DNA of 36,900 nucleotides, from the NCBI GenBank assembly GCA_026645745.1, contig JAPKMU010000004.1, positions 1 through 36,900 on the forward strand, read 5' to 3'. The position numbers and the translations under genes are program-made. The stretch is from Anaerolineae bacterium. GTDB lineage: Bacteria; Chloroflexota; Anaerolineae; Aggregatilineales; Phototrophicaceae. The notes under the pieces are model-generated. The model searched no databases and was not told the origin of the DNA. It saw only the letters and a program-made list of their open reading frames with translations. This document shows, one piece after another, positions 11,192 to 20,391 of this stretch; within the stretch, counting starts at the first letter, position 1; each line of letters opens with the position of its first letter.

Positions 11192-13597
11192 TTAGCCGCG
11201 CTGGATGAGCGGCAGCAGCAGCAACACAATCACCACGACCACGCCGATTAAGAGCGTGACCGCATATGTCCGTACATAACCCGTTTCGATGGGACGGAGG
11301 AAACCGCCGATCCAGCGGGCAAGCCGTCCGACGCCGTTGACAATCCCATCAATGATCCCCAGATCAATCGGGTTGGCGAGGATTCTGCCCATTGTGCGGA
11401 AACCCTTCGCTAACACCGTATCATGGAAGTAATCATGCCAGAATGCCCAGTCGAGCGTGTCCGCGAGGAACTTGGATGCGCGGTTAAACGGCTGCTCGAC
11501 AAAGCGGCTGTAGGTCTGATCCCAGTACATGCGCGCATTGGCAACACGCCACAGCGTGCTGACGCCGTTGCGGATTTCGAGTGGGTCTTGTCCCGCTTCG
11601 ACGGTGCGACGTGCGCGGCTGTAAATGCCGTTCGCCAAGAAGATCGCGGCGATAGCAATCGTGAGCGCACCCCCGGCGATCAAGACATTGAATTCACCCG
11701 CGTGCGCGTGTAACACCGAATGACCGAGCCAATCTGTGAACGCATGCGCGCCAAAGATGCTGTCAAAGCCGATGCCAGCCGGGGTGTTCATGAAACCGAT
11801 GAACACGCTGAAGAAGCCGAGCACCATCAGCGGAATGATCATCGACGGTACGCTTTCGGGAGCGCGTTCGGCGGCGGCGGTGCGGGGTTCACCATGAAAC
11901 ACCAGCACGATTTGACGCCACATGTAGAACGCAGTGAAGCCTGCCGCGACAATCAGCAGAGCGAGGGCGATGAAACCGCTCAACTTGCCATCGTAGAAGC
12001 CCGCAACCCACGAGTCCGCGAGAATTTCGTCCTTCGACCAGAAACCCGCGAACGGGAAAATCCCCGCCAGCGCCAGCGTGCCGATCAAATACGTGATGTA
12101 CGTGACGGGCATCTTACGGCGTAAACCGCCCATGTTGCGCATATCTTGGGGATCAAAGTCTTCTTCAGCATGCGCGTGTTCGTCGTGAGCGCCAGCGTGA
12201 GCTTCTTCTTCGTGTGCGTGATCATCATGCCCGCCGTGTCCGTGACCGTGTGCGAGATGATGCCCATGCTCTACGCCGTGAATCACCGAGCCGCTACCGA
12301 GGAACAGCAGCGCCTTGAAGAACGCATGCGTCACCAGATGGAACATCGCCGCGCCATACGCGCCGATGCCAACCGCCGCCACCATGAATCCAAGCTGGCT
12401 AACGGTCGAATACGCGAGAACACGCTTGATATCCCACTGACCGAGCGCGATCATACCCGCGACAATCGCGGTTGATGCACCGATGATCGTGACGATCAGC
12501 GACGTGAATTCGGCTTCGTGGAAAAACACATTCGAGCGCACCATCAAATACACGCCGGATGTGACCATCGTCGCGGCGTGGATGAGCGCTGAAACAGGCG
12601 TCGGACCCGCCATCGCGTCCGGCAGCCATACGAACAGCGGAATCTGCGCCGATTTACCCGCTACACCGAGCAGCATAAACAGCGTAATCAGTGTGATTAC
12701 GGTGCTGATCGGCAGCGAGAACGGACCGAGATCGACATCGAGTTCTTCGGCAATGTACCGCTGCGCTTTGCCAAACACACCGAGTTGATCGGTGGGGATG
12801 TGCTCATTGTCTGTATAAACCGGCTCATCCGAGGCGGCATGTTCGTCAACGACTGCGGCTTCTTCAGTGACGGCGTGTTCGCCTTCCCCTTCAGCAACCG
12901 CCGCTTCTTCACTGTGCGCGGCTTCTTCGCCATGCGCACCAGCGGGAACGGCAAGTTCACCCGGCTTGTAAAAGTCGAGCGTACCGAATGTCCAGAAGGT
13001 GAGGAAAATCGCCATCATCAAGCCAAAATCGCCGATGCGGTTGACGATCATCGCTTTGCGCGCTGCGTTGCTGTTGCGCCAACCGACGCCCTTCACCTTA
13101 TCGAACCAGAAGCCGATCAACAGGAACGAGCAAAGTCCCACGCCTTCCCATCCGACGAACAACATCAAGAAGTTGTTGCCCGTGACGAGGATGATCATGA
13201 AGACGAGGAACATATTCAAATACGCAAAGAAGCGCGCAAACCGCGAATCCCCGTGCATGTAGCCTTTAGCGTATACATGGATCAGCGTGCCAACGCCCGT
13301 CACGAACAGGAGCATGGTTACGCTGAGGGTATCGACGCGCATCTGCCAAGGGATTTCAATCCCGACGAGGCGAATCCAGCCATCAAAGAAAGGTGGATTC
13401 ACGACCGCCGCCTCAAAGCCGCTCCCCTGAAGATACGCGTACAGCAGGAGCGCGATCACAAACGTGAGCGCCGATGCGATGATCCCGATGGTGGCGGCGG
13501 CTTCCTCACGGAGGCGCGACCCCCACATCAAGTTAAAAAACGCGCCGATCGCCGGGATCAGGATGAGCAGCGGAACAAGTTGTGGATAATTTTCCAT
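11192..13597 (-). CDS. nuoL: NADH-quinone oxidoreductase subunit L, enlarged by two inserts
   Basis: 801 residues against the usual 610-660. The core is orthodox: TM5 glutamate E151 in FVGWEGVGLCSF, lysine K315 in GKSAQIPLFVWLPDAMAGP, and K391 in KRVLAYSTVSQLGFM. A long C-terminal region, needed for the lateral helix, is present and ends with a membrane segment at about residues 775-798. Two extra segments interrupt the core: an acidic Glu/Ala-rich stretch at about residues 217-270 and a His-rich stretch at about 440-478. By the positive-inside rule the first faces outside and the second the cytoplasm. ATG 13597 lies 47 bases after nuoK. Confidence 0.96.
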   Translation of the reverse strand: MENYPQLVPLLILIPAIGAFFNLMWGSRLREEAAATIGIIASALTFVIALLLYAYLQGSGFEAAVVNPPFFDGWIRLVGIEIPWQMRVDTLSVTMLLFVTGVGTLIHVYAKGYMHGDSRFARFFAYLNMFLVFMIILVTGNNFLMLFVGWEGVGLCSFLLIGFWFDKVKGVGWRNSNAARKAMIVNRIGDFGLMMAIFLTFWTFGTLDFYKPGELAVPAGAHGEEAAHSEEAAVAEGEGEHAVTEEAAVVDEHAASDEPVYTDNEHIPTDQLGVFGKAQRYIAEELDVDLGPFSLPISTVITLITLFMLLGVAGKSAQIPLFVWLPDAMAGPTPVSALIHAATMVTSGVYLMVRSNVFFHEAEFTSLIVTIIGASTAIVAGMIALGQWDIKRVLAYSTVSQLGFMVAAVGIGAYGAAMFHLVTHAFFKALLFLGSGSVIHGVEHGHHLAHGHGHGGHDDHAHEEEAHAGAHDEHAHAEEDFDPQDMRNMGGLRRKMPVTYITYLIGTLALAGIFPFAGFWSKDEILADSWVAGFYDGKLSGFIALALLIVAAGFTAFYMWRQIVLVFHGEPRTAAAERAPESVPSMIIPLMVLGFFSVFIGFMNTPAGIGFDSIFGAHAFTDWLGHSVLHAHAGEFNVLIAGGALTIAIAAIFLANGIYSRARRTVEAGQDPLEIRNGVSTLWRVANARMYWDQTYSRFVEQPFNRASKFLADTLDWAFWHDYFHDTVLAKGFRTMGRILANPIDLGIIDGIVNGVGRLARWIGGFLRPIETGYVRTYAVTLLIGVVVVIVLLLLPLIQRG

Positions 13598-13964: not shown

Positions 13965-15227
13965 TTAATCGCCCGCAGCGGTCGAACCTTCACCGCCGGG
14001 AAGCTGAGGCGCATCCACGCCATCATGATCACCCACTTGAGCGGCGATCACCTGTGGCAGCGGGCGGCTGACGCGGCGGCGCACACCCACTTTATCGCGC
14101 ACCTTATCCCATTCGCGCCGGGTCAAGACGATTGCGCCGACCATCGCGGCAAGCAGCAGGAGCGCCAAGAGCTGCATCGGCAGCATGTAGGTGATGAACA
14201 ATTCATAGCCAATCGCGCGCGGGCTGCCAAACGCTGGACGCGCTTCGACCGACGTGACGAAAGGCGCAACGCGCGTCGTTCCATCGCCAACAGGCGCGGG
14301 CGCAATCACGACCAACGTCGATTCGTCGCGGAGGACTTCGTAATCTTCCAGACGGGTGAGGATATCGTTCGTTTCGGCGGCATCAACAAAAAGCCAATTT
14401 ACGCGAGGTTCTTCTTCAAGCGTAAGCGGTTCGCTGAACGATCCCGCCGCCACCGAATCGATCAATACGAAATCGTCGTTTTCGTCGGCGGGCGTGCCGA
14501 TGTCGATCAACTGGATCGCATCCACACCGTCATAAGCATTAAAGACCACCGTGCGACCACTGCGATATTCGTTGACCGTTGAAAGGTCAGTCGGCACAAC
14601 CGAGAGCGTCGGTGCACCTGCCCCATGTGCGACAATCGTCGCGGCGGAATTGCCCTCCAGCGCGACAATCGCTGTGAACTGTTCGCCAGACTCGGTCGTA
14701 AACAGCAGGCTTGATTCACCCGCCGGGAGCGTAACAAAATCGCTTGCCTCACCGAACATCAGATCATCTGCGATTTGCGTCTCGCCTGCGAAGATATCCA
14801 CCGTGCCGACATCCTGAGCGACATGCATCACCCGCGCAAGCGGATCAGCCGCCGGAATATCACGCCCAGCGATACCACTGTTATAGACGCCGACTGCGAC
14901 CACGAAGAATAGGATACCCACCGCGACAGCCGCGACAGGGATGTACCAGCGGAATTTACGCTTATCACTGCCGATGAGCGCACTAATATCGGTGCGTTCT
15001 GCCCCAAGCAGCATGATGACAAACAGGAACAAAACCATGATCGCGCCCGCGTACACCGTGATCTGAATCAAGGCGAGGAAGGGCGCGTTCAACAGCAGGA
15101 ACATGAGGGCAATCGCCACCATCGTGCCTACCAAGAACAGGGCGCTGTGAACGGCATTATCACTTAAGAGCATGAACACAGCGGATATTACGGCAAGTGT
15201 GCCGACCAGCAGAAAAAGCTCTGTCAT
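13965..15227 (-). CDS. nuoJ: NADH-quinone oxidoreductase subunit J with an inserted DUF4397-like extracytoplasmic domain
   Basis: 420 residues from ATG 15227, about twice the usual 165-200. Membrane helices lie near residues 2-22, 29-47, 53-74 and 95-116; the third contains the conserved VYAGAIMVLFLFVIML that forms the NuoJ pi-bulge helix. The fifth helix (343-370, ELFITYMLPMQLLALLLLAAM) is the normal NuoJ ending but comes after an insert of about 220 residues (118-335). That insert contains ARVMHVAQDVGTVDIFAG and FGEASDFVTLPAG, the pattern of the secreted DUF4397 domain, with a weaker second unit. The KRKFR loop and Arg-rich tail place the insert outside. A 50-residue tail follows. An upstream in-frame start at 15281 would overlap the promoter. 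Confidence 0.93.
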   Translation of the reverse strand: MTELFLLVGTLAVISAVFMLLSDNAVHSALFLVGTMVAIALMFLLLNAPFLALIQITVYAGAIMVLFLFVIMLLGAERTDISALIGSDKRKFRWYIPVAAVAVGILFFVVAVGVYNSGIAGRDIPAADPLARVMHVAQDVGTVDIFAGETQIADDLMFGEASDFVTLPAGESSLLFTTESGEQFTAIVALEGNSAATIVAHGAGAPTLSVVPTDLSTVNEYRSGRTVVFNAYDGVDAIQLIDIGTPADENDDFVLIDSVAAGSFSEPLTLEEEPRVNWLFVDAAETNDILTRLEDYEVLRDESTLVVIAPAPVGDGTTRVAPFVTSVEARPAFGSPRAIGYELFITYMLPMQLLALLLLAAMVGAIVLTRREWDKVRDKVGVRRRVSRPLPQVIAAQVGDHDGVDAPQLPGGEGSTAAGD

Positions 15228-15271
15228 GGCTGCATCCGTTGAAGATTGGTAATACTTCCAAAGACTTGTGC

Positions 15272-15300
15272 AGTTTAACACAAGCGTACCGGGACTTCAA
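15272..15300 (-). promoter_or_regulatory. Candidate promoter for nuoJKLMN
   Basis: On the minus strand, TTGAAG (15295-15300), a 17-base spacer and TAAACT (15272-15277) stand between the nuoI terminator and the nuoJ start. Transcription would begin near 15265, about 38 bases upstream of ATG 15227. Each box matches consensus at four of six positions. The location directly behind a terminator is the stronger argument. Confidence 0.5.
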
Positions 15301-15315
15301 AAACAAACCGCACAG

Positions 15316-15348
15316 AAAAAAAGGCGAGATCGGTCAAATGATCTCGCC
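15316..15348 (-). terminator. Intrinsic terminator between nuoI and nuoJ
   Basis: Reading the minus strand, a perfect 9-bp stem (GGCGAGATC / GATCTCGCC; 15340-15348 with 15323-15331) and an 8-base loop are followed immediately by seven T residues (15322-15316). It begins 25 bases after the nuoI stop. This is the best-formed terminator in the window and divides the nuo cluster. Confidence 0.88.
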
Positions 15349-15372
15349 CTCCACGTTACCCGTTAACCCATG

Positions 15373-15870: not shown

Positions 15871-17454
15871 CTAATCTCCACTCGACTCACTTACAGTAAC
15901 CGCCGTTTCGTCGCTCTGGGCAGCGGGGGCTGCGTCTGCTTGCGGCTTGCGTTCGGGGATCGCCCCCGCCAGCCGTTCGAGCAGAGCAATCGTCCCGGTG
16001 AACAAGCTAAACGGAATTGCCAAAATCGCGCCGAGGATTTGCAGACCGACCCACCCCGCGCCGCGACGTTCGCCCGTCACAACCGGGTCGTTTTCCAGCC
16101 GTTCCGGTTCAGGTTCGGCTTCGTCGCGTTTGTCACGCAAAAACAGCATCGCGCCGCCGACAACAACGCCGAAGAAAAGCACCGCCACGATACCGTAGGT
16201 GATCGGGTCAGCGCCAGTTGAATCCGCGATCAAGGTCGCAATTGCCGACCATGTGACGGCGATCAACGCCAGCGGAAGCAAAATCTTCCAGCCGAGCGAC
16301 ATCAAGCGGTCATAGCGGATGCGCGGAAGCGTGGCGCGAATCCACACCATCAAAATCAGAAGCAGGATGACTTTGCCGATGATCACCAGCGGCGCAAGGA
16401 TCGGCAGTTGATCGACCAAGCCGAAGCCGTCTTGATACCCACCGAGGAACAGTGTCGAAACCACGACACTTACGCCGATCATGCCGAGATATTCCGCCAT
16501 CATGAAGGCGGCGAATTTCATCCCGCTGTATTCGACCATGAAGCCTTGTGTAAGTTCCTGTTCGGCTTCGGGGAGGTCAAACGGTGAGCGGTTGATTTCG
16601 GCAAGCAGCGCGACGAACAAAATACCCGCTGCCAGCGGATTTTGGAACACAAACCACTGATGAATATAGGTTTGGGCACGGATGATATCGCCGAGGCTCA
16701 TGCTGCCGACGATCAAGATCGGGACAGCCATCGTCAAGCCGAGGCTGAGTTCATAGCTCAACATTTGAGCAGACGCGCGCAAACCACCGAGCATCGCGTA
16801 TTTGTTGTTGCTTGCCCACCCTGCTAACACAACGCCGTAGGTGCCGATGCTTGTGATTGCCAGAAGCCAGAGCACACCGACGTTGAGATCGACCAAGCCC
16901 ATTGGCACGCGGTAAACGTTGCCATCAAACCAAGGGACGAGCAGATCAGGACCCAACGGGATCACAGCGAGCAAGACCAGTGCGGGGATGGCTTTCATCA
17001 TCGGGGCGATGCGATACACCCACTTATCCGCGCCGCTCGGCTCGATGTCCTCTTTGAAGATCAGCTTGATTGCGTCAGCAAGCGGCTGAAGCAGTCCCCA
17101 AGGTCCCACGCGGTTGGGACCGGAACGCTGTTGAAACCACGCGATGAACTTGCGCTCAAGCAGGGTCGTATAGGCGAAGCCGGTCAGAATGGCGAGGATA
17201 AAGATCAGCGAAAAAATGATCGAATGGACGATCGTGCATCCGCTCGATGAGCGGCATTCGATCGCCGTATTCGGGTCAATACGGTTGGCGTTGAACAGCG
17301 TATCGTTTAAGAAGCCCTCGATGCCGTGCGCCACCGCGTCGATATTGGCGATCAACAAGACGAGCAAGGCGATCACCACCAGCGCCACAATTCCGGCGAT
17401 AACAAGCCCGCGCGGGATACGGCGTTCGGAGTTGGTTGTCGAAACAGTCGCCAT
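15871..17454 (-). CDS. nuoH: NADH-quinone oxidoreductase subunit H, extended at both ends
   Basis: 527 residues against the usual 320-430. NuoH forms the quinone-entry channel at the junction of the two arms. The core is recognised by LERKFIAWFQQRSGPNRVGPWGLLQPLADAIK (about residues 98-130), PFDLPEAEQELTQGF and EYSGMKFAAF. About 75 residues precede the normal first helix and include an extra predicted helix (15-37) and two cysteines (C67, C73). After the last core helix comes an acidic linker, another hydrophobic segment (about 468-490) and an Ala/Ser-rich tail. ATG 17454 has AGGGGAA 5 bases upstream. A composite palindrome lies between nuoG and this gene. Confidence 0.96.
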   Translation of the reverse strand: MATVSTTNSERRIPRGLVIAGIVALVVIALLVLLIANIDAVAHGIEGFLNDTLFNANRIDPNTAIECRSSSGCTIVHSIIFSLIFILAILTGFAYTTLLERKFIAWFQQRSGPNRVGPWGLLQPLADAIKLIFKEDIEPSGADKWVYRIAPMMKAIPALVLLAVIPLGPDLLVPWFDGNVYRVPMGLVDLNVGVLWLLAITSIGTYGVVLAGWASNNKYAMLGGLRASAQMLSYELSLGLTMAVPILIVGSMSLGDIIRAQTYIHQWFVFQNPLAAGILFVALLAEINRSPFDLPEAEQELTQGFMVEYSGMKFAAFMMAEYLGMIGVSVVVSTLFLGGYQDGFGLVDQLPILAPLVIIGKVILLLILMVWIRATLPRIRYDRLMSLGWKILLPLALIAVTWSAIATLIADSTGADPITYGIVAVLFFGVVVGGAMLFLRDKRDEAEPEPERLENDPVVTGERRGAGWVGLQILGAILAIPFSLFTGTIALLERLAGAIPERKPQADAAPAAQSDETAVTVSESSGD

Positions 17455-20010: not shown

Positions 20011-20391
20011 TTATTCCACCTTGCGCTTTTGCTGGCGGATCGCGGTCTCGTAACCCGTCAGCGCTCGATCCTGAATAGTCTGCGCCAGTACGCCGAGCGA
20101 CTGCGTATCCTGACGCATCTCTTTCTCTGCAATTTCCAACGCCGCCGCGAAATCTTCGGCGGCGCGCGTAAACTGACCTCGTTCGAGATATAGCTCACCG
20201 CGCAGTACGTAGTTCACAGCGGCGTCGGGCGCAACGGTGATCGCATGGGTGAGCGCATATAAACGACGACTGGTATCCGGCTTCATGCCCAGAAAATCCA
20301 AAACGCGATCCCGCAGCGTTGGCGCTTCGGGAATCGCGCTGTCGTTCTCCGGCTCGTTCATGGCGTCATCCGGCACGCGGCGATCATCCAT
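20011..20391 (-). CDS. TPR-like protein encoded between nuoF and nuoG
   Basis: 126 residues with no signal peptide or membrane segment, so it should be cytoplasmic. Residues 1-25 are acidic and look disordered. From about 40 the sequence is helical with a TPR pattern: AITVAPDAAVNYVLRGELYLERGQFTRAAEDFAAALEI contains the small/large residue spacing of one full repeat. A C-terminal helix ends with a basic QQKRKVE. Its ATG at 20391 is 3 bases after nuoF and its TAA abuts the nuoG ATG, so it is translated as part of the operon. It is not one of the 14 standard subunits. I infer an assembly factor or accessory subunit for the NADH-dehydrogenase module; nothing in the sequence proves it. Confidence 0.88.
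   Translation of the reverse strand: MDDRRVPDDAMNEPENDSAIPEAPTLRDRVLDFLGMKPDTSRRLYALTHAITVAPDAAVNYVLRGELYLERGQFTRAAEDFAAALEIAEKEMRQDTQSLGVLAQTIQDRALTGYETAIRQQKRKVE

Follow-up and report, generated by a model that had tools for sequence, protein, structure and literature searches.

The window analysed here, a stretch of 36,900 nucleotides (contig JAPKMU010000004.1 of the Anaerolineae bacterium assembly GCA_026645745.1), holds a minus-strand nuo operon with all 14 nuo genes, in the order nuoA-B-C-D-E-F, a small TPR gene, and nuoG-H-I-J-K-L-M-N. The gene nuoJ (13965..15227, minus strand) lies between nuoI and nuoK, as in its relatives, and forms an intact open reading frame with its ATG at 15227 and its end at 13965. 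Its translation, its Pfam matches and its position identify the product of 420 amino acids as the NADH-quinone oxidoreductase subunit J, carrying an inserted tandem of DUF4397. The small TPR gene (20011-20391), located between nuoF and nuoG, was present in nearly all the operons bearing this insert and in one genome of family f6, and was absent from family f2 and from the other Chloroflexota examined.

The core of the protein is that of an ordinary NuoJ. Residues 15-118 matched the Pfam family Oxidored_q3 in two stretches (6.5e-36), the score against PF00499 was 123.7 bits (cutoff 33.2), and each of the 41 sequences that we aligned (41/41) matched PF00499. Against the lineage-specific equivalog models for NuoJ in NCBIfam the protein remained below all the curated cutoffs (best 117.5 bits, cutoff 192), these models being 72-282 positions long and insert-free and the insert splitting the match. 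An AlphaFold2 model built from the alignment of 41 sequences predicted the five-helix fold, with the helices at lower model confidence than the insert. Helices 1-4 (residues 1-117; 14877..15227, minus strand) were modelled at residues 2-21, 25-45, 49-77 and 95-116, and helix 5 with its cytoplasmic extension (14082..14222, minus strand) was modelled as one helix at residues 336-382, where the conserved segment FGSPxxIG...LLLAAMVGAIVLT is found. Window NuoJ thus has in common with the NuoJ/ND6 (Oxidored_q3) family the five-helix core, the operon position and the conserved segment of helix 3; its residues 1-75 fitted E. coli NuoJ (7p7j_J) with a Z of 12.4 and 1.3 A over 75 residues, and its core matched further solved chains, such as 8e9g_J, 9g83_J and 3rko_J. 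None of the solved NuoJ/ND6 chains that were matched exceeds 252 residues, a length too small to hold the insert, and no complex I structure that we examined has such a domain. The genome also encodes a second complex I-like locus (L184, contig C77), with duplicated NuoM-type genes and an insert-free NuoJ of 181 residues.

Helices 4 and 5 of NuoJ are separated by an insert of about 215 residues, which is missing from the NuoJ proteins of families f2, f5 and f6 and of other Chloroflexota. The initial annotation had proposed that the protein is interrupted between these helices at 14223-14876 (minus strand), and this stretch corresponds exactly to residues 335 to 118. It had also recognised DUF4397 in the first half and a degenerate second unit in the remainder, and both halves of that reading stand. 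The first unit (residues 126-217; 14577..14852, minus strand) matched DUF4397 (PF14344) at residues 131-217 with 1.2e-11 and 45.6 bits (cutoff 30.6), its scores ranging from 45.6 to 48.4 bits in all, searching with the insert alone gave 1.7e-12, and DUF4397 was likewise detected in 41/41 of the aligned insert-bearing sequences. The second unit (residues 222-330; 14238..14564, minus strand) gave no Pfam DUF4397 match in window NuoJ, being too divergent. Comparison of profiles using hhalign did align the two units with each other (probability 95.6, P 1.3e-8), and the full insert, with both of its units, could be aligned to tandem DUF4397 proteins that these genomes encode in secreted form (E 1.8e-30, 177 columns). 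By these profile comparisons the second half of the insert is another DUF4397-type unit that has diverged. The AlphaFold2 model places two beta-sandwiches between helices 4 and 5, each unit with its own strands; averaged in blocks of ten over residues 121-330, pLDDT lies at 84-97.

The insert has in common with the secreted tandem proteins both units and the predicted fold, the same solved structures being matched, but it sits among the transmembrane helices of a respiratory enzyme, whereas DUF4397 is otherwise carried on exported proteins. Such secreted tandem proteins (L001, L002, L007 and relatives) are abundant in the order, and one of them is fused to apparent fasciclin-like repeats. With regard to conserved chemistry, we found no sign of disulfides or metal sites, the insert of the window being free of cysteine and cysteines occurring in few relatives, and the aligned relatives presented no conserved surface motif besides residues that look structural. 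The insert is acidic (net charge -6 to -39), which raised the idea of a proton or cation antenna; we dropped this idea because its secreted DUF4397 cousins are acidic to about the same degree.

That the insert is an artefact of assembly or gene prediction fusing two genes, through a chimera or a frameshift, was the possible refutation named in the initial annotation, and the fragmentary state of the window genome assembly (655 contigs, 87% complete) would leave room for it. However, the 41 aligned sequences, which come from separate assemblies, show the same architecture as one uninterrupted reading frame, the NuoJ core continuing in phase before and after the insert, and separate assemblies thus refute such a chimera or frameshift. 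We searched 154 genomes of the order, which we take to be Aggregatilineales (SBR1031), and found a NuoJ of this kind in 145 of them. Because about 135 of these 145 carry the insert (as judged by frame lengths and split matches, with the 41 sequences aligned and read), it is not an assembly error, and we give the artefact practically no credence. NuoJ frames of about 400 residues or more occur in families f1, f3, f4, f7 and f8; those of f2, f5 and f6 have the usual length. Among 298 genomes sampled from the class, matches at 1e-25 or better were confined to members of the order, all of them insert-bearing; named relatives include the Anaerolineae metagenome assemblies CFX9 and CFX5. In a sample of 301 genomes from the phylum no homologous insert appeared beyond the family of the window at 1e-8, although this search has little sensitivity, given the divergence of the order's more distant members. 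The conservation was earlier claimed to be lineage-specific, and the frequency of the insert within the order and the lack of a homologous one elsewhere in the class and phylum samples agree with that view.

To place the origin of the insert we used a tree of the concatenated Nuo subunits except J, rooted with Chloroflexales; the trees were quick ones, with SH-aLRT support only. The insert-bearing genomes formed one clade with a support of 100, after f2 and then f5/f6 had split off, requiring one change of the trait. One genome of family f3, G351, has a NuoJ frame of 214 residues that is insert-free in an operon otherwise typical and intact; as it nests with f3 (support 100), the history involves one gain and one loss. 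The insert was gained once and lost cleanly once. It follows from the loss in G351 that the insert is not essential everywhere, and that the rest of the operon stayed intact is as expected for a removable module. Among relatives the identity to window NuoJ was about 30% in the insert and 62-68% in the helices, and for pairs with at least 72% identity the dN/dS values ranged between 0.05 and 0.28 in the insert and between 0.03 and 0.14 in the core. The insert is hence under purifying selection, looser than that on the helices, and evolves faster than the core. Fast evolution, dispensability on at least one occasion and a plentiful supply of DUF4397 source modules in these genomes are what would be expected if a permissive loop had simply taken up a self-folding domain, kept because clean excision is rare and serving no specific function. 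Against such a neutral ornament, the insert is intact in about 135 genomes from several families, under purifying selection and with its two-unit fold conserved, and a neutral insert of 215 residues would be expected to have been trimmed more often in so many deep lineages; we regard this explanation as unlikely.

E. coli NuoJ has its N-terminus outside, five helices and its C-terminus inside (PMC4604451), and therefore the loop between helices 4 and 5, together with the insert, lies outside. In window NuoJ, the residues KRKFR ahead of helix 4 and a C-terminus rich in Arg also fit an insert on the outer face, a placement earlier proposed from charge distribution and in agreement with the E. 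coli topology. Taking this topology together with the known architecture of complex I, we infer that the insert sits above the proximal part of the membrane arm on its outer side, close to NuoH, NuoA and NuoK. Describing it as a "cap" on the arm is reasonable in terms of geometry.

Among solved structures, the PepT2 extracellular domain came closest to the modelled insert, with a Z of 17.2 and 2.6 A for 176 residues that covered both units, and Foldseek paired the insert with PepT1 at 1.4e-9. In the mammalian peptide transporters PepT1 and PepT2 (SLC15A1/2) this domain is also a tandem of beta-sandwiches of similar size and arrangement, located on the outer face between two membrane helices as is the NuoJ insert (PMC4597091), although the host proteins are unrelated. 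When sequences rather than folds were compared, the insert profile found AlgF as its best match among PDB sequences (2.9e-4), a weak match to a hydrazine dehydrogenase assembly factor (0.02) and only marginal similarity to PepT chains (E 0.013 to 1.4, with PepT1 at 0.013). Since sequence gives AlgF at 2.9e-4 and PepT1 at 0.013, the link between the insert and PepT rests on fold rather than on demonstrated ancestry. Nor did sequence comparison prove PepT domains to be DUF4397, the insert profile reaching just 0.013 and a profile of the secreted form of DUF4397 finding no PepT chain. As a control we modelled a secreted tandem DUF4397 protein of the window genome, which returned PepT1 (Z 16.1) and then HGSNAT and AlgF. 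Because the secreted control yields the same top matches, the likeness to PepT is a property of tandem DUF4397 proteins in general, and the predicted fold suggests that DUF4397 has its structural home among PepT, HGSNAT and AlgF.

What is known of these structural relatives bears on what the insert may do. In PepT the extracellular domain is a trypsin binder that can be taken away at no appreciable cost to transport (PMC4597091). AlgF, like the insert, consists of two beta-sandwich domains and is extracytoplasmic, but it is a separate periplasmic protein of alginate acetylation rather than part of a longer chain; it mediates protein-protein contacts by joining AlgJ and AlgX, does not bind alginate oligomers, and was likened to the PepT2 domain by its authors (PMC10641220). 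Since these two characterised relatives are protein binders, and AlgF leaves its own polymer unbound, we prefer to view the NuoJ insert as a protein-docking module, a reading by analogy to which we assign a probability of about 0.5 and which is favoured by the PepT-trypsin interaction, AlgF and the weak match to the hydrazine dehydrogenase assembly factor taken together. An ancestral member of one Anaerolineae order acquired, on a single occasion, a tandem DUF4397 module of the kind abundantly secreted by these bacteria, in the loop between helices 4 and 5 of its NuoJ. From its inferred outer-face position close to NuoH, NuoA and NuoK, the module would bind another extracytoplasmic protein or domain and keep this partner beside complex I, while taking no part itself in redox chemistry or proton pumping. 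The rapid divergence of the insert, which leaves no conserved surface motif, and its clean loss in G351 weigh against this reading.

The initial annotation had offered two roles, the binding of a wall polymer and the binding of another respiratory complex. In the first, the insert would hold on to a polymer of the cell wall or matrix and so tie complex I to the envelope, which would suit the other DUF4397 proteins of the window genome, as they look secreted, and the fact that beta-sandwiches of the class of AlgF and the insert include binders of carbohydrates or small ligands (PMC10641220), so that the fold by itself leaves the ligand unsettled. Nevertheless, it is proteins that the nearest characterised relatives bind, and AlgF, the best studied of the structural relatives, shows no binding of alginate oligomers (PMC10641220). 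Nor does a conserved sugar-binding patch of aromatic or acidic residues stand out in the insert, whose acidity equals that of its secreted cousins. An envelope anchor therefore seems to us quite improbable, and of the two suggested roles, judging by AlgF and by the trypsin binding of PepT, the polymer is the weaker, whereas binding to another protein complex is plausible.

For a docking module, the partner might be a second respiratory complex, a protein of the envelope, or an extension of complex I itself that is particular to the lineage. Published genomes of Aggregatilineales contain the genes of a bc complex and of alternative complex III (PMC8067394), either of which is a candidate partner of the insert. 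A more specific version, which we advance tentatively, sees the insert as a built-in receptor on the outer face that recruits a specific extracytoplasmic partner, such as alternative complex III or an oxidase, by the same tandem beta-sandwich means with which mammalian PepT transporters tether trypsin. The result would be a supercomplex particular to this lineage, or a gating of complex I.

Alternatively, the insert may fold back on outer-face parts of its own complex, such as the extended N-terminus of NuoH and its cysteine pair, and act as a structural clamp or assembly aid that stabilises or assembles the membrane arm in the manner of mitochondrial accessory subunits of the intermembrane space. 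The nuoH gene (15871..17454, minus strand) encodes a protein of 527 amino acids with an N-terminal extension, including an extra helix and the outer-face pair Cys67-x5-Cys73, and a lineage-specific C-terminal extension. Both extensions are longer in the insert-bearing clade, with the extra helix in f1; NuoH gained in the same lineage an extra helix and an outer-face cysteine pair. Sizeable lineage-specific additions were seen only in NuoH, NuoJ and a loop of NuoL (NuoA, B and C being compared in few genomes), and the weak match to a hydrazine dehydrogenase assembly factor also speaks for this possibility. Against it, the cysteine pair, which stands just before the first conserved helix, is already present in f5/f6 and predates the NuoJ insert; because f5/f6 have the pair without the insert and G351 keeps it after the loss, the two features are not strictly linked, and strict coupling of the insert to the NuoH extension is not supported. 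We consider the clamp unlikely. The N-terminal part of nuoH (17236-17454), with the extra helix and the Cys67/Cys73 pair, is specific to the order. In NuoL (11192-13597) we observed an acidic insert containing histidines at about residues 212-273, partly common to f5/f6, as well as another stretch that is rich in His.

The usual picture of bacterial complex I is that of a minimal enzyme of 14 subunits, elaboration being mostly mitochondrial. The NuoJ insert resembles accessory (supernumerary) subunits in adding mass to the conserved core of 14 subunits, but the addition lies within the chain of a core subunit, while accessory additions are separate subunits. Our search of the literature, in which three papers mention DUF4397, found none pairing it with complex I and, as far as that literature shows, the NuoJ-DUF4397 architecture, common across the order, is previously undescribed; its two parts are of known kinds, and their combination and place are new. 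Here a folded domain on the outer face has been accommodated by a core membrane subunit of complex I and maintained in most of an order. With its gain placed on the tree and one deletion supplied by nature, the function of mass added to complex I becomes open to testing in bacteria. PepT, AlgF and NuoJ all use this tandem sandwich, which suggests that a general docking module of the outer face lies behind the name DUF4397.

Upstream of nuoJ lies a promoter-like sequence, TTGAAG-N17-TAAACT (15266..15300, minus strand), overlapped by a box resembling a Rex operator, TTGTGTTAAACTGCACAA (15266-15283), and between nuoI and nuoJ there is a hairpin like those of intrinsic terminators (15319..15352, minus strand), with a stem of 13 pairs followed by a T run. 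Terminator-like sites as a class are not clearly above expectation in this region (9 against 6.0 in shuffles, sd 2.9). The Rex operator of Streptomyces is TTGTGAANNNNTTCACAA, and Rex represses nuo and hppA there (PMC5355995); the geometry of the box fits this operator, and Rex is encoded in the window genome. The exact box occurs a single time in the genome, at nuoJ, and one copy with 1 mismatch lies between hppA and an aldehyde dehydrogenase gene. Since a plain TTGTG-N8-CACAA match is not rare by itself in a window of such size, the weight of the box comes from its conservation. Within 4 mismatches it was found at a similar distance from nuoJ in 40 of 48 insert-bearing relatives and in 0 of 8 insert-less ones, counts that are not independent as the sequences are related, and G351, which lost the insert, is also without the box. 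Together, the Rex-like box, the promoter-like sequence and the terminator-like hairpin may divide the operon in two parts, nuoA-I and nuoJ-N.
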